Shown here: positions 2,269 to 13,062 of the stretch, one piece after another | Position numbering within the stretch: the stretch's first letter is position 1 | Layout: every line of letters begins with the position of its first letter | Assembly (NCBI GenBank): GCA_027067055.1 | Contig: JAMOMK010000088.1 | Location: 1 to 64,000 of the forward strand | Length of the DNA: 64,000 bases | Direction: 5' to 3' | From: Lysobacterales bacterium | GTDB taxonomy: Bacteria > Pseudomonadota > Gammaproteobacteria > Xanthomonadales > Marinicellaceae | Position numbers and translations under genes: made by a program | Notes under the pieces: generated by a model | Told to the model about the DNA's origin: nothing | Database searches by the model: none | The model's input: the letters and a program-made list of their open reading frames with translations, nothing else

Positions 2269-3480
2269 ATGATAACGATAAAAGCGGCCGCTAATCCGGT
2301 CAAAAGTAATTTGAAAACTGGACTCGCCTTAGCAGGTGGTGGTCCTTTAGGTGGGTTTTATGAATTAGGGGCTTTATGCGCTCTAAAGGATAGTATTTCT
2401 ACTCTTAATCTGAATAACTTAGATGTTTATGTTGGTGTCTCTTCTGGTTCTTTTCTCGTATCCGCATTGGCAAACGGTATTAGTACGGAAGAAATTGCTG
2501 ATATTTTTGCTTTTAATAAAAAAACTGAAACACCCTTTAACCCAGATAATTTTTTACGCCCTGCTTATAAGTTGTTTTTGAAAAAGGCAACAGATGTGCC
2601 ATTTGTTGCATTTGATGCATTAATGTCTTGGGTGAAAAAGCCAATGCACACCAGTATTGTCGATATTTTAGAAAAATTTGGCAGTATTTTACCAAATGGA
2701 GCCTTTAATAATGCAGCTTTAGAGAAATTTATCCGCGGGGTCTTAAGTACCAAACATTCTAGCAATGACTTTAGAAAATTAAAAAACAAACTTTATATAG
2801 TTGCCTGTGAAATTGATACAGGGAAAATTGCTACTTTTAGCACAGATGAAAACTCCGATGTACCCATATCAAAAGCAGTACAAGCTTCTTCGGCTTTACC
2901 AGGTCTGTATGCTCCGGTAAATATCAAGGGAAAATTTTATGTGGATGGTGCATTGCGCCGTACCATGAATGCATCAGCGGCACTCGATCAAGATGTTCAG
3001 TTATTGTTTGCAGTTAATCCAATTGTTCCATTTGAAAGTGAACAGGTACACGACGAAAAGTCAAAGTTGTTAAAAGCTGGGTTGCCGATGATATTGTCAC
3101 AAACATTTAGATCTATTGTGCAATCACGCTTAAAATCAGGCTTGGATAAATACACAACGCATTATCCCAAAGCGGATATTATTTTGGTTGAGCCTAATAA
3201 AGACGATGAAATGTTATTTAATACCAACCTGTTTAGTTATTCACGACGTGATGAATTGTGTGAATATGCCTACCAACAAACAAGAAAACAGATTCAAAAG
3301 AAAATGGATGAAATTCAAGCGATACTAAAAAGACATCAATTTAGTATCAATAAAGAAAATTTATTTAATGAGAATAGAACCTTAAATGATTTTCTAGAGC
3401 AACAAAAGCATGGTCATTCTCGAGTTAAACGCCGCTTGGATGAAACATTGAATAAGTTACAAAGAAGCCTTAGTCAATAA
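2269..3480 (+). CDS. Patatin-like phospholipase (RssA/YlbK type)
   Basis: The protein hydrolyses acyl esters, probably of phospholipids, with a Ser-Asp dyad. Counted from the ATG at 2269, the oxyanion-hole glycine loop is LAGGGPLGGF (residues 21-30). The nucleophile elbow is GVSSG (56-60, Ser58), and the catalytic aspartate sits in VDGAL (Asp226). The C-terminal about 100 residues are charged and helical. A GTG at 2251 is in frame, but the TATAAT at 2257 lies inside that extension, so ATG 2269 on a leaderless message is preferred (403 residues). There is no signal peptide, so it acts in the cytoplasm or at the inner membrane. It is convergent with queF. Confidence 0.85.
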   Translation: MITIKAAANPVKSNLKTGLALAGGGPLGGFYELGALCALKDSISTLNLNNLDVYVGVSSGSFLVSALANGISTEEIADIFAFNKKTETPFNPDNFLRPAYKLFLKKATDVPFVAFDALMSWVKKPMHTSIVDILEKFGSILPNGAFNNAALEKFIRGVLSTKHSSNDFRKLKNKLYIVACEIDTGKIATFSTDENSDVPISKAVQASSALPGLYAPVNIKGKFYVDGALRRTMNASAALDQDVQLLFAVNPIVPFESEQVHDEKSKLLKAGLPMILSQTFRSIVQSRLKSGLDKYTTHYPKADIILVEPNKDDEMLFNTNLFSYSRRDELCEYAYQQTRKQIQKKMDEIQAILKRHQFSINKENLFNENRTLNDFLEQQKHGHSRVKRRLDETLNKLQRSLSQ

Positions 3481-3510
3481 TATTAGACCGAAGGGTTAAT
3501 ACTAAGGCTT
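3465..3510. terminator. Convergent hairpin between patatin gene and queF
   Basis: AAGCCTTAGT (3465-3474) and ACTAAGGCTT (3501-3510) form a perfect 10-bp stem across the patatin stop codon. On the plus strand it is followed by a T-rich stretch, and it lies just before the end of queF, so it could serve both converging transcripts. The loop is long (26 bases). Confidence 0.5.
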
Positions 3511-3518
3511 ATGTTTCT

Positions 3519-3878
3519 TTATTTGTTTTTAGTGTGTTCAACAGTGACATCAGTATAAATACCACCGCGGACCATAAATTCAACACGAACTTTCATCCAA
3601 CGTGGGTTTGTGGCTTTGACCAAGTCATCCAAAATTTCATTTGTTACTGCTTCATGAAATGCACCCGTTTCACGGAACGACCACACGTATAATTTCAAAG
3701 ATTTTAGCTCAACACATAACTCATCTGGCGTATAATCCAAATAAATAGTGGCAAAATCAGGTTGCCCAGTTTTGGGACAAAGGCACGTAAATTCAGGGAT
3801 TCGGATAGAAATTGTGTAATCTCTGTCTTTTTGTGGGTTAACAAATGTTTCTAAGTCTTTGCATGCGGTTGTAGTCAT
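3519..3878 (-). CDS. queF: NADPH-dependent 7-cyano-7-deazaguanine reductase (short type)
   Basis: QueF reduces preQ0 to preQ1 in queuosine biosynthesis. The motif [12 protein letters not shown] holds the thioimide-forming cysteine (Cys34) and the acid Asp41, followed by the family signature LKSLKLY..SFR and a FHE motif. At 119 residues this is the unimodular form, as in Bacillus, and it is compact even for that type. The usual SFRNxGxFHE reads [10 protein letters not shown] here. The start ATG at 3878 is close to a weak -10 (TACATT five bases upstream), so a very short leader is possible. It is divergent from smc with 63 bases between them. Confidence 0.9.
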
Positions 3879-3886
3879 GGCATAAT
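3858..3886 (+). promoter_or_regulatory. Probable smc promoter
   Basis: TTTGCA (3858-3863), a 17-base spacer and CATAAT (3881-3886), overlapping the queF start. A purine-rich AAGGAA precedes the smc ATG at 3942. Read by eye from consensus only. Confidence 0.4.
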
Positions 3887-3941
3887 GTACGGTTTAAAAA
3901 AAGTGCACCTTAAACAATTAAAAAAGGAATAGCAAGTCAAT

Positions 3942-6900
3942 ATGCGATTAACCAAGATAAAATTAGCAGGATTTAAGTCATTTGTTGACCCAACCGAATT
4001 TCTCATGCCATCGAACTTAATTGGTGTGGTCGGCCCCAATGGTTGTGGTAAGTCAAATATTATCGATGCCGTTCGCTGGGTTATGGGCGAAACATCTGCC
4101 AAAATGTTGCGCGGAGCTTCAATGACAGATGTTATATTCAGTGGTTCAAGTGCGCGCAAACCCGTTGGTACAGCAACGGTTGAATTGGTTTTTGATAATA
4201 CAGATGGTAAAGTTACGGGTGAATTTGCCAAATACAATGAAATTTCCGTTAAGCGACAAGTTTCTCGTGATGGACAATCGGCTTATTACCTTAATCGCAC
4301 CAAATGCCGTAAAAAAGACATAACCGACCTGTTTTTAGGTACAGGTCTTGGCCCTAGAAGTTACGCCATTATTGAACAAGGCATGATTTCGCGTATTGTT
4401 GAATCAAAACCTGAGGAATTACGTGGTTATATTGAAGAGGCTGCGGGTATCTCAAAATACCGTGAACGTCGTAGAGATACGGAACGTCGAATAAAACGTA
4501 CACGCGAAAACCTAGAAAGATTGGATGATTTGCGAGCAGAAATTGGTAAGCAAATTAATAAACTACACCGTCAAGCCAAAAATGCAGAAAAGTATAAAGG
4601 GCTAAAAGATAAATTTCGTGTTATGGAAGTGGAATTGTTAAGTTTAAAATGGAAAAGTTGGCACGATAGAACATCCCGTTCGACAGAAGTCGTTACCGAA
4701 TTTGATTTAGCACTTGAAGAAATTAAGGCTAGTTTGACTGGAAGTGAAACACATATTGAGAAACAAAGAATAGCCCATCATGTTTTACAAGATAAAGGCA
4801 ATAAAGTTCAAGAACAATTGTATTCAGTTAATACAGAAATTGGAAAAATTGAACAATTTATTAGTCACACCAAGTCTTTGTCGCAACGCTTGCAGACGGA
4901 ATTAAAAGAAGCTGAAGAAGCTTTTTCAATTAGTCAGGAGCAGTTGGAAAAAGATAAAATAGATTTAGATAGTGCACAAATAGAACTGAAAAAAGTAGAG
5001 CCACAATTGCAAGAAGCCGAGCTTAGAGTTAAAGAAAAACAAGAAGCTTTTTCTACATTGGAAGATGAATTGTTGGACTGGCAAAGCAGTTGGAATGATT
5101 TGGTTTCTCAAATATCAGAAAAAAATCGCATTGTTGAAGTCGAACAAACTAAAATTGCCAGCTTGGATCAGCAACTAATTCGCCAAAGCGATAGATTGCA
5201 AACCTTGCAAAAAGAATCATCTGATGCAACAGCCAAGCCATTAGAGCAAGAATTAGAAGAGCTGGAACTCAAACAAGAAGAACAAAACTTTGCGCAAGAA
5301 GACAAGGTAGAGAAACTTGAAGAGACAAAAGAAAAGCAAGAGAATAAAAAATTAGAACTACGCAGTGCTCAAGATAAACTCAATCAATTACAGATGCAAC
5401 TGCATCAATCCAAAGGACGTCGCGGTTCATTACAGGCATTGCAACAAGCGGCAATGGCAGATGACAACGAAGAAGTTAAGCAGTGGTTTGTTGATAATGA
5501 TTTAAAAGGTGCTAAAAAATTATCGGAGTTACTTGAAGTTGAAGCGGGTTGGGAAAAAGCAGTAGAAACGGCTTTAGGTGATCGTTTGCAAGCTTTAGTG
5601 CCACAAGGAAAATATGAAATTGAGAAAGCTTTAACAGATTGGCAATATGGTAAATTAACCTTTGCTGAAAACACCCAAGGAAACATCAAGCCTCTTAAAG
5701 GCACTTTGTCTGAAATGGTCAAGGCACCTGATGTGGTTTATGAATGGTTTAATTCTATTTTTGTATCAGAGAGTTTATCTTCATCTTTGCAGAATCGAAA
5801 TAAACTTTCTCAAGGTCAATGCAGTATTACCTCAGAAGGCATACTCGTGGGTAAAAATTGGACAAAAACAATTGCTGGCAAGACCGAAGGTGGTTTTTTA
5901 TTACGCAAAAAGGAACTCAAGGACTTGGATGAGTCGATTGAAGCATCTGAAATTACAATAGATGATACTGTTACAGAAATTGAAGAGTTGCGCAGTACTA
6001 TCTCACAACTCGAGGCACTCAAAGAGCAATTGCAAATGGATGTCAATATGGGTCATAGACGCGTTTCTGAGTTAAATGCCAATATTTCATCAAAGCGTCA
6101 CAAAATTGATCAAATTAAACAACGCAATATACAAATAAATACTGAATCTGAACAGTTGCAAGTGCAAATTGAGATTGATGAAACCAGTGTTAAAAAGGCG
6201 AGAGGACAACTCGAAGAAGCCATTGAAATTGCCAAAGAACTCGAAGATCAAAAACAAACTCAAGAGCGTAACCAACACGATTTAGTGAGTACCAAAGAAT
6301 TAGCAAAAAAGACTTTGTCAGAGTCCTCTAGTTTTTATTACCAGCAAAAATTGTTGCTGCAGTCACTAGAGGCTAAAGTTGCCTCAGCACAACGTGGAAT
6401 TGAGAGATTAGAACAGCATTGTGGGCGATTATCGCAACGCAAGAGTAATTTGACTTCACAAATGTCACAAGACTCCAATCCAATTGAAGAAAAACAAAAA
6501 GAACTGGAATTGTTGCTTGAAAAACGCATTAAAACAGAGCAAGAACGGGATAAATTACGTCAAGAAGCACAAACATGCCAAGCAGAACTAGAGATTTTAG
6601 AACGCCAACGCAGTGATCACAATGCCAGTATTGAACATGCCCGAACTAAATTGGAAAATGCTAAATTAGAGCAACAAAGTAATAAACTCAAAGCCGAAGC
6701 GTATTTAGAACAAATTCAAGAAAAAGGATTTGACCCTGAAGTTGTGCTTGCCGAAAACCAAGAAGGACAGGGCAGTGATTACAAACAAGAGGAAATGGAG
6801 CGTTTAGAGCGCAGTATTGTGCGATTAGAACCTGTCAATTTAGCTGCCATTTCAGAATACGAAGAAGAAAGTGAACGTAAAAATTACCTTGATCAACAAA

Positions 6901-7439
6901 ATGATGATTTAGTCGAAGCATTAGAAACGCTTGAAAAAGCCATCAGTAAGATTGATAAAGAAACACGAACACTCTTTAAAGACACTTTTGAAGCGATAAA
7001 TACTAACATTAAAGTATTGTTCCCTAAATTATTTGGTGGTGGGCATTGTTTCCTTGAGTTGACTAGTGATGATTTGCTCACCACAGGCGTGTCAATCATG
7101 GCACGACCTCCAGGTAAGCGCATATCCAATATTCAGTTGCTATCAGGTGGTGAAAAAGCATTAACGGCAGTATCAATGGTCTTTTCAATATTCAACCTTA
7201 ATCCAGCACCATTTTGCATGCTCGATGAGGTTGATGCGCCATTGGATGATGCCAATGTTGGTCGATTCTCGAAAATGGTCAAAGAAATGTCTGATAAAGT
7301 TCAGTTCTTATTTGTATCTCACAATAAAGTGACCATGGAAATTGCTAACCAGCTCAACGGTGTAACCATGCGTGAGCCCGGTGTTTCAAGACTTGTAAGT
7401 GTCGATTTAGCCGAAGCTGAAAAGTTAATTAATGATTAA
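3942..7439 (+). CDS. smc: Chromosome partition protein SMC
   Basis: The ATPase organises and condenses the chromosome as a coiled-coil dimer. The 1165 residues show the full architecture. There is an N-terminal head with Walker A GPNGCGKS (31-38), two long coiled-coil arms (about 170-500 and 660-1000), and a central hinge around 510-640 including the glycine-rich GDRLQALV region. The C-terminal head carries the ABC signature LLSGGEK (1066-1072) and Walker B with LDEVD (1094-1098). The length is typical of canonical bacterial SMC. Many gammaproteobacteria have MukB instead or follow smc with zipA-ligA; here the next gene is a GNAT acetyltransferase that overlaps the smc stop by 8 bases (ATGATTAA). 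Confidence 0.97.
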   Translation: MRLTKIKLAGFKSFVDPTEFLMPSNLIGVVGPNGCGKSNIIDAVRWVMGETSAKMLRGASMTDVIFSGSSARKPVGTATVELVFDNTDGKVTGEFAKYNEISVKRQVSRDGQSAYYLNRTKCRKKDITDLFLGTGLGPRSYAIIEQGMISRIVESKPEELRGYIEEAAGISKYRERRRDTERRIKRTRENLERLDDLRAEIGKQINKLHRQAKNAEKYKGLKDKFRVMEVELLSLKWKSWHDRTSRSTEVVTEFDLALEEIKASLTGSETHIEKQRIAHHVLQDKGNKVQEQLYSVNTEIGKIEQFISHTKSLSQRLQTELKEAEEAFSISQEQLEKDKIDLDSAQIELKKVEPQLQEAELRVKEKQEAFSTLEDELLDWQSSWNDLVSQISEKNRIVEVEQTKIASLDQQLIRQSDRLQTLQKESSDATAKPLEQELEELELKQEEQNFAQEDKVEKLEETKEKQENKKLELRSAQDKLNQLQMQLHQSKGRRGSLQALQQAAMADDNEEVKQWFVDNDLKGAKKLSELLEVEAGWEKAVETALGDRLQALVPQGKYEIEKALTDWQYGKLTFAENTQGNIKPLKGTLSEMVKAPDVVYEWFNSIFVSESLSSSLQNRNKLSQGQCSITSEGILVGKNWTKTIAGKTEGGFLLRKKELKDLDESIEASEITIDDTVTEIEELRSTISQLEALKEQLQMDVNMGHRRVSELNANISSKRHKIDQIKQRNIQINTESEQLQVQIEIDETSVKKARGQLEEAIEIAKELEDQKQTQERNQHDLVSTKELAKKTLSESSSFYYQQKLLLQSLEAKVASAQRGIERLEQHCGRLSQRKSNLTSQMSQDSNPIEEKQKELELLLEKRIKTEQERDKLRQEAQTCQAELEILERQRSDHNASIEHARTKLENAKLEQQSNKLKAEAYLEQIQEKGFDPEVVLAENQEGQGSDYKQEEMERLERSIVRLEPVNLAAISEYEEESERKNYLDQQNDDLVEALETLEKAISKIDKETRTLFKDTFEAINTNIKVLFPKLFGGGHCFLELTSDDLLTTGVSIMARPPGKRISNIQLLSGGEKALTAVSMVFSIFNLNPAPFCMLDEVDAPLDDANVGRFSKMVKEMSDKVQFLFVSHNKVTMEIANQLNGVTMREPGVSRLVSVDLAEAEKLIND

Positions 7440-7938
7440 ATTGAAGGAATTGTCACTCTTGCCTTTGGGTGAAGATGACAAAGAGTTTTATTTTAAAATC
7501 TACTCTAATCAATCATTGATGCAATACGTTACAGCTCCTTTGACTCGTGTTGAATCGGATAAGAGTTTTTATTTAACCTTAAAGAAAATGTCTCAACCTC
7601 GTCCTGTCATCATACTTAATGTAATTACCCTAAATAAAACTAAAGAAAAAATTGGTATAATTGGCTTGCGATGGAATCAGTCCTCGTCCGACCAGGTAGA
7701 AATTGGCATTATATTGCTGGAGGAATATCAAGGAACTGGTTTTGCTTATGCAGCAAAAAAGGCCTTAATGCAGGAAGCCTTTGATAATTTGTCCATTAAA
7801 AAAATAGTTGCTCATTGTGAAAAGAACAATCATGCAGCTAATAGAGCTAACAAAAAACTGTGTTTTAATCAAGTCGGTCAATACACTGAGAAAAATAGCT
7901 CAATTGTGAAAATAAAATGGGAAAAAATTAATGAATAA
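7432..7938 (+). CDS. GNAT-family N-acetyltransferase (RimJ/RimL-like)
   Basis: A 168-residue acetyltransferase-like protein. The beta4-alpha3 region VEIGIILLEEYQGTGFAYAAKKALMQEAF fits the acetyl-CoA pyrophosphate loop (Q-G-x-G-x-A), followed by the 'NxxAxRxxxKLGF' equivalent NHAANRANKKLCF. Its start overlaps the end of smc by 8 bases, and its stop overlaps the start of the methyltransferase gene by 8 bases (ATGAATAA). The three are therefore almost surely translated from one message. The substrate is unknown: it could be a housekeeping protein or peptide N-acetylase, or a tailoring enzyme for the RiPP encoded just downstream. The second is only an inference from coupling. Confidence 0.8.
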   Translation: MIKLKELSLLPLGEDDKEFYFKIYSNQSLMQYVTAPLTRVESDKSFYLTLKKMSQPRPVIILNVITLNKTKEKIGIIGLRWNQSSSDQVEIGIILLEEYQGTGFAYAAKKALMQEAFDNLSIKKIVAHCEKNNHAANRANKKLCFNQVGQYTEKNSSIVKIKWEKINE

Positions 7939-8762: not shown

Positions 8763-8987
8763 ATGAAATTAGCAAAAATATTAGAAACTATTGGTGAGAA
8801 TACTTCTTTAAAAGAATTTGATACCTTAGAAGAGTTTTTAGCAGAGTCAGAAGTTGAGCCAAAAATCATGAATGAAATAATTGCTAAAAATTCAAACTTA
8901 GTCTGTGGGATGTTTCCTGAACGTGATGTTCCAGATGAAAAGGAACAAGAAGATGAAGATAGTGATGAAGATAATGAAGTAAAATAG
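8763..8987 (+). CDS. Candidate split-borosin precursor peptide
   Basis: A 74-residue protein with three parts. Residues 2-42 can form three short helices (LAKILETI, TLEEFLAESE, PKIMNEIIAK). Their spacing resembles the borosin-binding domain of SonA (helix, 'LG.D/N', acidic helix, then a third amphipathic helix). Residues 43-57 are an uncharged to mixed stretch NSNLVCGMFPERDVP with the only cysteine (Cys48). Residues 58-74 are almost all Asp/Glu. The core to be N-methylated is most likely in 43-57, with the acidic tail as a follower. It starts 85 bases after the methyltransferase, with a usable RBS and possibly its own promoter. The gene is supported by position, RBS and architecture; the precursor role is inference. 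Confidence 0.65.
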   Translation: MKLAKILETIGENTSLKEFDTLEEFLAESEVEPKIMNEIIAKNSNLVCGMFPERDVPDEKEQEDEDSDEDNEVK

Positions 8988-9020: not shown

Positions 9021-10814
9021 ATGGAATTAAAAAACATTAAATTTCTAGTTTCAATTTGTGTAATATTTTGGGTTGGATTAACATTTCAAGTAGATTCATT
9101 TAAAGCGGGTGAGGAAGAAGATGAGACTAGCTTTAATAATATAAATTATTTGCTTTCAAAAACAGATGATTTAAGAACTAGTAATGCTGAGCAATTTTCT
9201 AAAAACCTAGGAAAATTGACCAAACTTAAAAATTCTTTTAATGATAGTCAGTTATGCTATTATGGATATTTGGTTGCATTTAAGCATGGGTTTGAAGGAC
9301 AGTATATGTATGCTAAAAAATTGCTTCTTAGTTTGCTCGAAAAGTGTGCTGGTGACATAGATAATCTTGTAAGAATTAATGCAACACTTTCAAATGTATA
9401 TGTAATTTCTAATGAGTATGATTATGCCATAGCTAGTTTGGACTATGCAATTGAGCACATCAATGATGTTCATACAGTAGAGCTAAAGCAAATTGTGTAT
9501 TCATTAGCGATGTTGGTTTATCGCATGGTAAATCAATATGATTTAAGTTTGAAATTTACACAATTATTACTTAATGATAATCCATCAGATATTTTGTTGT
9601 GTAAGGCTCTTTCAAATAAATACCGTATTAAACTAAAGAGAAGTGAAGTTGACCCAAAAGTAATTAAAGATACTATTTCGCAATGTGAAAATAGTGGAGA
9701 GATAATTTATAGTAATTTAATGCGATTAGATTGGATAGATTATCAGTTAAATAAGGGGGCATTTAGCAATCAAAAATTAGAATCAATGTTGGTAGAAGTG
9801 CATAGTTATGAGGAGGTTATAAAAAACACTAATTACACTAATTTAATTAATATCAAAGATGGTTTGTTAGCGAAAATATATTGGGAAATGCATAGAGTTG
9901 ATGATTTTTTACATTATGCTAAAATGACAGTTGAAACCAGCAAAGCTCTTGGTAATACAAAACAAAAAATTGAAATTTTGGGTTTGCTAGTTAAATATTA
10001 TCAAAAAGTAAATGATTATGAAAATGCCTTTTTAAATCAAAAAGAGAAGAGTGAAGCTGAGAAGTTGCATTTCACTACTGAACAAGCCAAAATCATGGCA
10101 TTTCAAACGGTCAAACATAATAACCTAGCAAAAACCCAACAGATAAAATACTTAAACAATCAGAATAAATTATTGTCACTTGAAAAAGTTTTAACAGAAA
10201 AAAAATCAACAAACCAAAAGCTTCTTATATTGTTTTTACTGTCGTTAGTTGGCTTTATATTGCTTTGGAGTTTACGAAACAGGAAAATTCAGAGAATGTA
10301 TAAGCATTTATCAGAAACAGATAATATGACTGGCATATATAACCGTAAAGGTTTTAAAGATTTTGCTGAAAAACTCTTACTACAATCTAAGAAAGAAGGG
10401 AAATCAGTTGCAATGGCAATTTTTGACCTCGATAGGTTTAAGCGCATTAACGATAAGTATGGGCATTTAAAAGGAGATTGGACAATAAAAAAGACCATTG
10501 CGCAGTGTCAACTAGTGCAAAATGATAAGATTACTATTGGTAGAATAGGAGGTGAAGAATTTGCAATAATAATGAGAGATTCAACCAGTGATGAGTTGTC
10601 GGAATTCGTCGAGGAGTGTCGTGTTATGATTGAGAACATTGATTCGAGTGCGACTGGTCATGATTTTGTTATTACCGCTAGCTTTGGAGTGACATCAACA
10701 AATGCTTCAGGATATGTCTATTCAAAACTGTTATCTGATGCAGATCATGCCATGTATGATGCCAAAACTTCAGGGCGAAACATGGTCATTAACTACAAAA
10801 ATAACCCTATCTAG
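9021..10814 (+). CDS. Periplasmic TPR-sensor diguanylate cyclase
   Basis: A 597-residue membrane protein. It has an N-terminal hydrophobic segment (about 8-24), a long helical, TPR-like region predicted to lie in the periplasm (about 40-370), a coiled stretch, one transmembrane helix (about 400-418) and a C-terminal GGDEF domain from about residue 428. The active-site motif is intact as GGEEF (510-514), preceded by FDLDRFKRINDKYGH, so c-di-GMP synthesis is expected. No RxxD inhibitory site is seen just upstream of the motif. It begins 33 bases after the candidate precursor stop on the same strand and could share its transcript. This domain layout is common in the Lysobacterales; the signal sensed is unknown. 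Confidence 0.88.
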   Translation: MELKNIKFLVSICVIFWVGLTFQVDSFKAGEEEDETSFNNINYLLSKTDDLRTSNAEQFSKNLGKLTKLKNSFNDSQLCYYGYLVAFKHGFEGQYMYAKKLLLSLLEKCAGDIDNLVRINATLSNVYVISNEYDYAIASLDYAIEHINDVHTVELKQIVYSLAMLVYRMVNQYDLSLKFTQLLLNDNPSDILLCKALSNKYRIKLKRSEVDPKVIKDTISQCENSGEIIYSNLMRLDWIDYQLNKGAFSNQKLESMLVEVHSYEEVIKNTNYTNLINIKDGLLAKIYWEMHRVDDFLHYAKMTVETSKALGNTKQKIEILGLLVKYYQKVNDYENAFLNQKEKSEAEKLHFTTEQAKIMAFQTVKHNNLAKTQQIKYLNNQNKLLSLEKVLTEKKSTNQKLLILFLLSLVGFILLWSLRNRKIQRMYKHLSETDNMTGIYNRKGFKDFAEKLLLQSKKEGKSVAMAIFDLDRFKRINDKYGHLKGDWTIKKTIAQCQLVQNDKITIGRIGGEEFAIIMRDSTSDELSEFVEECRVMIENIDSSATGHDFVITASFGVTSTNASGYVYSKLLSDADHAMYDAKTSGRNMVINYKNNPI

Positions 10815-10977: not shown

Positions 10978-13062
10978 ATGACAGATTTATCAAAATATAG
11001 GAATATAGGAATTTTCGCTCACGTAGATGCCGGTAAAACAACAACTACAGAGCGTATTTTGGCGTTAACAGGTAAAATTCACCAAACAGGTGAAGTACAT
11101 GATGGCGAGGCAACAACTGACTTCATGGATCAAGAACGTGAACGTGGGATTACTATTCAATCAGCAGCAACTAGTTGTATGTGGAAAGATCACCGTTTAA
11201 ACATTATTGATACCCCGGGTCACGTTGACTTTACTGTTGAAGTTTATCGTTCATTAAAAGTACTTGATGGCGGTGTTGGTGTATTCTGTGGATCTGGTGG
11301 TGTTGAACCTCAGTCAGAAACTAACTGGCGTTATGCTAATGACTCTGAGGTTGCTCGAGTTATTTTTATTAATAAGTTGGATCGTATTGGAGCTGATTTT
11401 TACCGTGTTGTTGAACAAGTTGACAAAGTATTGGGAGCTACTCCTTTAGTGATGGTTTTACCCATTGGTATAGAAGATGAGTTTGTTGGTGTTGTCGATT
11501 TATTAGAGCGTAAAGCTTATATCTGGGAAGATTCTGGCAATCTTGATTTTGAAATCAAGGATGTTCCAGCAGATATGGTAGATAAGGTTGAAGAATACCG
11601 TGAGAAATTAATCGAAACAGCCCTTGAGCAAGACGATGATGCATTGGAAGCTTATTTGGAAGGTGAAGAACCTTCAATGGATGTCATCAAAGCATGTATC
11701 CGTAAAGGCACAAACACAATGGATTTCTTTCCTACTTATTGTGGTTCTGCATTTAAAGACAAAGGCGTTCAAAATGTATTGGATGCAGTTGTTGATTACT
11801 TACCAAGTCCTACAGAGGTTAAGCCGCAGCCTGAAGTGGATTTAGATGGTAATGAAACTGGCGAATTTGCTATAGTTGATGTTGATCGTCCTTTACGTGC
11901 ATTAGCATTTAAAATTATGGAAGATAGATTTGGTGCCTTAACATTTATTCGTATTTACTCAGGTAAAATGGATAAAGGTATGCAGGTATTGAATACATTT
12001 ACTGGTAAAACAGAAAGAATCGGTCGTATTGTAGAGATGCATGCGGATGATAGAATCGAATTAGAAGGTGCGCAAGCTGGTGATATTGTTGCTGTTTTGG
12101 GTATGAAAAATGTTCAAACAGGTCATACACTTTGTGATCCTAAAAATCCTGCGACTCTTGAGCCTATGGTTTTCCCTGATCCTGTTATCTCAATGGCTGT
12201 TAGCCCTAAAGATAAAGCAGCTTCTGAAAAATTATCAGTTGCTATTGGTAAAATGATTAAAGAAGATCCTTCTTTTAGAGTAGAAACAGATGAAGATTCT
12301 GGCGAAACTATCCTTAAAGGCATGGGTGAACTTCACTTAGATATTAAAATTGATATTCTAAAGCGTACTTATGGTGTTGATGTTGATGTCGGTGCTCCAC
12401 AGGTTGCTTACCGTGAAGCGATTACTCGTAAAGTTGAAGACACATACACACATAAGAAACAATCTGGTGGAGCGGGTCAATTTGGTAAAATTGATTTCAT
12501 CATTGAACCAGGTGAGTCTGGTTCTGGTTATGAATTTGAATCAACGGTAACTGGTGGTAATGTTCCTAAGGAATATTTCCCAGCTATTGAAAAAGGTTTT
12601 GCTTCATTAATGGAAGAAGGTGTATTAGCTGGATACCCATGTACTGATATTAAATTTACCATTACTGATGGCGCTTATCATGCAGTGGATTCATCTGCTA
12701 TGGCATTTGAATCAGCGGCTAAAGGTGCTTATCGTCAATCCATGCCAAAAGCAGCTCCACAATTAATGGAGCCAATTATGGCAGTTGACGTATTTACACC
12801 TGATGATCACGTTGGTGATGTTATTGGTGATTTAAATCGTCGACGTGGTATGATTAAGTCTCAAGAGCCTGCAGCAACAGCTGTACGCATTAAAGCAGAT
12901 GTGCCTTTATCAGAAATGTTTGGTTATATCGGTTCATTACGTACAATGACATCAGGTCGTGGTCAATTCTCTATGGAATTCTCACATTATAACCAATGTC
13001 CTTCTAATGTAGCAGAGACTGTTATTGCAGAAGCTAAAGCGCGTAAAGAAGCTAAAAGCTAA
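10978..13062 (+). CDS. fusA2: Elongation factor G, second type (EF-G2)
   Basis: A 694-residue translational GTPase. G1 is [10 protein letters not shown]3 is [10 protein letters not shown]4 is NKLDR, followed by the usual domains II-V (IV includes the [10 protein letters not shown] region). The wording [36 protein letters not shown] and '[18 protein letters not shown]' matches, from memory, the EF-G2 group of Shewanella, Vibrio and Pseudomonas rather than the str-operon copy. No rpsL, rpsG or tufA is nearby, which supports a second paralogue. The exact role of EF-G2 (translocation or ribosome recycling) varies by organism. A strong terminator follows. Confidence 0.9.

Follow-up and report, generated by a model that had tools for sequence, protein, structure and literature searches.

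A predicted split-borosin precursor with an adjoining TPR-GGDEF gene in a Lysobacterales bacterium

The locus and its methyltransferase

The window, meaning the whole stretch of 64,000 nucleotides analysed here, comes from a Lysobacterales bacterium with a 3.42 Mb draft genome. Among named relatives, Lysobacterales MAGs and Marinicella stand closest to it. A SonM-like methyltransferase, a short predicted precursor and a protein with TPR and GGDEF domains are encoded one after another on the same strand (Table 1). The stop codon of the methyltransferase gene is followed by a gap of 85 nt before the precursor ORF, and the TPR-GGDEF gene lies 33 nt downstream of the precursor.

Table 1. Coordinates of features at the locus, in window positions.
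Feature	Positions	Strand	Basis
smc	3942-7439	+ (same strand as precursor)	
GNAT-family acetyltransferase	7432..7938	+	Pfam Acetyltransf_3 E 3.6e-22
SonM-like peptide backbone alpha-N-methyltransferase (by homology), 248 aa	7931..8677	+	phmmer to SonM; catalytic residues
Putative split-borosin precursor gene, 74 aa	8763..8987	+	ATG start, conservation, homologues
Leader, residues 1-42, short three-helix borosin-binding domain (predicted)	8763..8888	+	AlphaFold2 helices; SonA-type profile match
Predicted core, residues 43-52 (NSNLVCGMFP), invariant Cys48, nearly invariant Pro52; methylation sites putative	8889..8918	+	Family conservation; tandem core copies in L071, L092
Acidic C-terminal follower, residues 53-74	8919..8984	+	Acidic C-terminus conserved in family
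TPR-GGDEF partner, 597 aa: N-terminal hydrophobic segment, TPR (predicted periplasmic), transmembrane helix, GGDEF	9021..10814	+	Pfam GGDEF E 1.3e-34
TPR sensor domain, residues 28-398, invariant Cys194 and Cys222	9102..10214	+	AlphaFold2, Foldseek, Cys in 88 of 88
GGDEF domain, intact GGEEF active-site motif	10314..10781	+	Pfam; motif
EF-G	10978-13062	+ (same strand as precursor)	

The methyltransferase matches SonM (7ltc) with a phmmer E of 1.1e-66 and is identical to it at 117 of 240 aligned positions. The catalytic residues of SonM, Y58, R67 and Y71 (Miller et al. 2021, PMC8429565), align to Y61, R67 and Y71 of the window enzyme, which by homology is a borosin-type backbone N-methyltransferase and which, as in split borosins, is encoded apart from its precursor. 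Similarity to this enzyme alone was used to gather 80 named loci for comparison. A GNAT gene is present in 44 of these and is the immediate neighbour of the enzyme gene in 36; an extra tailoring step by this recurrent neighbour is possible. The first-pass annotation had proposed looking for the enzyme and precursor beside smc in relatives. Within the 80 loci an upstream smc is confined to the closest relatives (L051-L054, L059), and its adjacency was dropped as a functional clue. One further locus (L192, 1256-2259) has a 77-residue ORF with a weak match to the precursor profile (E 0.002) directly 5' of the methyltransferase gene, followed by an MFS-like transporter, with no TPR partner. Beside the precursor gene no exporter and no protease for maturation could be identified; Rfam gave zero matches over the window, hence no c-di-GMP riboswitch at the gathering threshold, and a defence-system search gave no match.

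Leader, core and acidic follower of the predicted precursor

The first-pass annotation had placed a 74-residue gene directly after the methyltransferase, and this is confirmed. Of the differences between the ORF and its closest relative (L002, 95% identity), 10 are synonymous and 4 nonsynonymous; within residues 43-57 there are five of the former and none of the latter. Because dS is 0.30 and dN 0.02, the ORF is, on this substitution pattern, a genuine gene under purifying selection. Homologues are found within the genus and the wider family, as a rule immediately 3' of the methyltransferase gene. No matching family was found in Pfam or NCBIfam, phmmer against the PDB gave nothing useful, and a profile search with the near family returned weak unrelated matches only. 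Natural fusions of the precursor with the enzyme or with a GGDEF protein were also searched for, and none were found.

The AlphaFold2 model of the precursor has helices at residues 2-13, 22-28 and 33-42 and a C-terminus without secondary structure (mean pLDDT 74.8); a Foldseek search of the PDB with this very small model gave no meaningful match. A profile of 43 sequences matches a SonA-type profile with a probability of 96.6% (E 5e-10), which marks the leader as homologous to the borosin-binding domain of SonA (sequence verified by PDB 7ltc_B, with identity over 71 residues). The window subfamily alone, taken without intermediates, matches SonA profiles weakly, at a probability of just 10.9%, and the intermediates therefore matter for this link; they are homologues from other families and orders that are longer by about 13 leader residues and bridge to SonA. 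The SonA domain comprises five helices (Miller et al. 2021, PMC8429565). A five-helix leader of about 53 residues is not what the window precursor has, its model (pLDDT 74.8) placing three helices in 42 residues and the alignment showing a leader shorter by about 13. Thus the three short helices proposed by the first-pass annotation are present and belong to a homologous leader, but their likeness to SonA is only partial. Since the partner enzyme is SonM-like and the leader is homologous to the SonA binding domain, the reading of positions 8763-8987 as a split-borosin precursor is supported, and the gene very probably encodes one.

Met1, Ser15 and Cys48 (Cys in 26 of 26) do not vary among 26 near relatives, and Leu7, Glu8, Gly11 and Pro52 hardly do. 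The C-terminal pattern is a hydrophobic residue-x-Cys-x-x-x-Pro followed by Asp/Glu, and few features of the family are better conserved than Cys48, Pro52 and the acids after Pro52. Mean column entropy is 2.06 bits for residues 1-42, 1.88 for 43-52 and 1.24 for 53-58, and the core is accordingly not hypervariable; the idea that residues 43-57 vary more than the leader is thereby not borne out. The core is present twice in tandem in the precursors of L071 (NVCCMMLPATVCCMMLPG) and L092 (NVCCLLVPAQVRCLLVPG), supporting the Cys-containing stretch as the product-forming unit. Tandem duplications of the Cys-containing core were located at L071 7021-7284, L092 6953-7216 and L127 7390-7704. The single cysteine of the window precursor had earlier been taken to hint at further chemistry; its conservation stands, but no Cys-modifying enzyme was seen beside the gene.

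The window precursor is strongly acidic at its C-terminus, as had been remarked, yet this is a trait of the family, in which usually 5-8 acidic residues directly follow the Pro, and it is lengthened in the window gene. The tail may serve in recognition, solubility or processing. That it is a follower serving only self-protection or the solubility of a hydrophobic methylated core, with no part in signalling, is possible although somewhat doubtful, and would be compatible with a signalling role for the core itself. Tail length and sequence vary widely among homologues, one Steroidobacter precursor (L084, 7426-7854) carries a long lysine-rich tail in place of an acidic one with a TPR-GGDEF gene still downstream of it, and tail charge is uncorrelated with TPR charge (rho -0.01), so that a simple charge docking of the tail on the TPR domain is unsupported. 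Against a pure solubility role, strong acids at residues 54-56 are among the best-conserved sites of the near family, and tailed precursors are those that adjoin GGDEF genes (Fisher p 0.001, with a coarse cut-off that counts some short acidic tails as untailed). In a Luteibacter locus (L129, 6492-9111) seven borosin precursors lie in series, the leaders of the tail-less members resembling each other, and only the last, directly before the GGDEF gene, bears an acidic tail.

The TPR-GGDEF neighbour

The TPR-GGDEF gene is the most informative neighbour of the precursor and was absent from the first-pass annotation. A recognisable precursor occurs in 76 of the 80 methyltransferase loci, and in 71 of them a complete precursor is directly followed by a TPR-GGDEF gene, giving 87 pairs. 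Five further loci have a GGDEF gene downstream, but there the contig breaks off or the precursor is unconfirmed (L114), and in the remaining four the contig stops just past the enzyme or precursor. All 76 loci that could be assessed thus have a TPR-GGDEF gene; in a few from Dyella/Luteibacter, blastp matches the TPR part weakly or not at all. Within the host's own genome, full-length similarity is limited to the partner itself, out of about nine proteins with GGDEF domains.

The reverse view is similar: the majority of TPR-GGDEF genes of this family have a precursor directly upstream, including those on contigs without the enzyme. Homologues lacking a nearby methyltransferase, which had been proposed as grounds for rejecting the precursor reading, do exist in the literal sense (L168, L171, L146 and L180, each a precursor with TPR-GGDEF), but the enzyme is encoded elsewhere in those genomes. 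TPR-GGDEF genes without an upstream precursor are found at L175-L178 and in second place in some tandems. Among genomes of the family, the TPR-GGDEF protein is present in 25 of 25 with the enzyme versus 3 of 8 without it (Fisher p 2.4e-4); a profile search for the enzyme in the latter eight again found none. One genome with no detected methyltransferase (G024; L178 / L231) has a family TPR-GGDEF gene with no precursor upstream, a possible relic or a case of independent use. A GNAT gene also adjoins precursor-GGDEF pairs on enzyme-less contigs (L144, L146).

Precursor and GGDEF genes are duplicated as units, which are also found away from the methyltransferase, and in loci with two or three pairs precursor and receptor stay in register. 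Precursor and TPR distances correlate, and partner swaps within loci lower the correlation in 999 of 1000 permutations; co-duplication of adjacent genes could produce this correlation with no need for binding specificity. Taken together, a working partnership between the precursor and the TPR-GGDEF protein is rather probable.

In the window protein hydrophobic segments lie near residues 6 and 400. Across 88 partners an N-terminal segment is seen in 71 on a simple scale and a second one before the GGDEF domain in all 88, as is the GGEEF motif of a diguanylate cyclase. At window positions 10511-10560, where GGEEF is intact, the RxxD inhibitory site just upstream seems by eye to be absent (QNDK there). 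Cys194 and Cys222 are invariant, and Cys79 and Cys109 are both present in 17 partners and both absent in 71; such invariant or co-occurring pairs would fit disulfides in an oxidising periplasm. The AlphaFold2 model of the TPR segment (mean pLDDT 92.9) shows a predicted fold that suits peptide binding. Its best Foldseek match in the PDB is the pheromone-bound Rap of phage Phi3T (E 3e-4, TM 0.58), and its sequence profile weakly matches Rap and AimR. Counting against a peptide ligand, APPBP2 with bound degron and the APC/C TPR subunits head the VIA-align ranking (Z 24-25) and slightly outscore Rap (Z 22-23), NprR (Z 22) and AimR (Z 18-19), which also rank near the top, TPR being a general protein-binding fold. 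Because the fold is so common, the match speaks for suitability for binding and not for binding as such.

Operons of the Shewanella type extend the association. Two loci whose enzymes are 98% and 93% identical to SonM (L232, L233) have a SonA homologue followed immediately by a TPR-GGDEF gene, the TPR of the L232 partner being confirmed by Pfam. A GGDEF gene is adjacent in 17 of 20 diverse loci from the Shewanella-type order, that of L234 being interrupted by a frameshift or gap; the other three (L242, L246, L249) have a TPR histidine kinase in its stead, as does L225. TPR was recognised by Pfam in most of the GGDEF proteins examined; the exceptions, L238, L245 and L250, all match the window TPR segment by blastp. 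What is conserved, whether the partner is a GGDEF protein or a histidine kinase, is the TPR sensor. The kinase genes lie at L225 3383-6631, L242 4064-6919, L246 3961-5871 and L249 5060-7132, two of them encoding hybrid kinases with receiver domains. L249 also carries two neighbouring borosin-type methyltransferase genes (3137-4778) with no recognised precursor before its TPR histidine kinase gene.

Possible signalling role and relation to known systems

The explanation we favour is that of a modified peptide with a cognate TPR-GGDEF receptor feeding c-di-GMP, and as a whole it is reasonably likely. The short helical leader would dock on the neighbouring SonM-like enzyme, whose inferred targets for N-methylation are backbone amides of the hydrophobic segment about L46-C48; L46 and C48 themselves are a guess at the sites, made by eye from L63 and I65 of SonA. 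The acidic end would act as a conserved follower. Freed from leader and tail, the product would reach the periplasm, release and export both being guesses. There the TPR domain would bind the matured peptide, as ligand or regulator of the receptor encoded just downstream, and set the activity of the cytoplasmic diguanylate cyclase; the peptide would thereby control c-di-GMP, in a direction that is likewise a guess. Since a gene for a c-di-GMP-making membrane sensor adjoins in every assessable relative, a signal is suggested rather than an antibiotic. For a direct ligand-receptor relation between peptide and TPR-GGDEF protein the chances are about even.

Alternatively the product may be an ordinary secreted split-borosin natural product, with the TPR-GGDEF protein regulating its production, for example by sensing the state of the surface or envelope and co-regulating the operon, with no direct contact to the peptide. 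The small same-strand operon and the frequency of GGDEF genes as regulators would suit such an arrangement, which is nevertheless unlikely, as duplicated pairs and pairs on separate contigs show the TPR-GGDEF gene travelling with the precursor rather than the methyltransferase, the core is conserved and not diversified, and the sensor module is kept while its output alternates between GGDEF and histidine kinase. Still less probable is that the precursor protein itself, with its folded leader and in place of a released peptide, acts inside the cell and regulates the cyclase from the cytoplasmic side, with methylation tuning it and the acidic tail contacting the GGDEF part: the lack of a recognised signal peptide, exporter or protease, the retained C-terminal position of the tail and the place of the precursor gene immediately 5' of the cyclase gene are in its favour, but what partners of either output type have in common is the TPR domain, predicted to be periplasmic, and arrays like L129, with a tail on the last precursor only and the other leaders alike, point to the C-terminal end and not to the leader.

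Gammaproteobacterial split borosins at large, the Shewanella model included, might be N-methylated peptide signals, each with its own periplasmic RRNPP-like TPR receptor driving either c-di-GMP synthesis or, where the output module is exchanged, a histidine kinase phosphorelay; this generalisation is tentative and falls somewhat short of an even chance. To our knowledge, no Gram-negative bacterium has been shown to control c-di-GMP through a ribosomal, backbone-methylated peptide and a sensor resembling pheromone receptors. According to Miller et al. 2021 (PMC8429565), the final product is known for none of the split-borosin pathways. A fixed TPR-receptor partnership would offer a concrete, testable function in c-di-GMP or phosphorelay signalling, together with a readout by which the mature product could be traced, and would do so in the tractable laboratory species S. 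oneidensis as well.

The link between borosins and GGDEF proteins is in part known already, since the legend of a figure on borosin architectures names a GGDEF domain for one type (Fig. 1 of Xu et al. 2024, PMC11395268). A search of the open literature for other papers combining borosin and GGDEF-type terms found none. The link probably goes back to Imani et al. 2022, whose borosin types the figure follows.

Among characterised systems, SonM-SonA of Shewanella oneidensis (type IV) is alike in its separate SonM-like enzyme, in the homologous helical leader of its short precursor and, in Shewanella-type genomes, in the TPR-GGDEF gene directly downstream. The window precursor differs in its shorter leader with fewer predicted helices and in its core Cys and acidic follower, where SonA ends in YLVISHGNGD. 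The fungal fused borosins (OphMA) share a homologous methyltransferase domain (phmmer E about 1e-49), but the window precursor is a separate gene. RRNPP receptor genes often adjoin the gene of their peptide. With these receptors (Rap, NprR, AimR) the modelled partner shares a TPR peptide-binding solenoid fold (Z 18-23) at about 10% identity; they are soluble cytoplasmic proteins that respond to imported peptides, whereas the window partner is a predicted membrane protein with a GGDEF output and its putative peptide a predicted RiPP.
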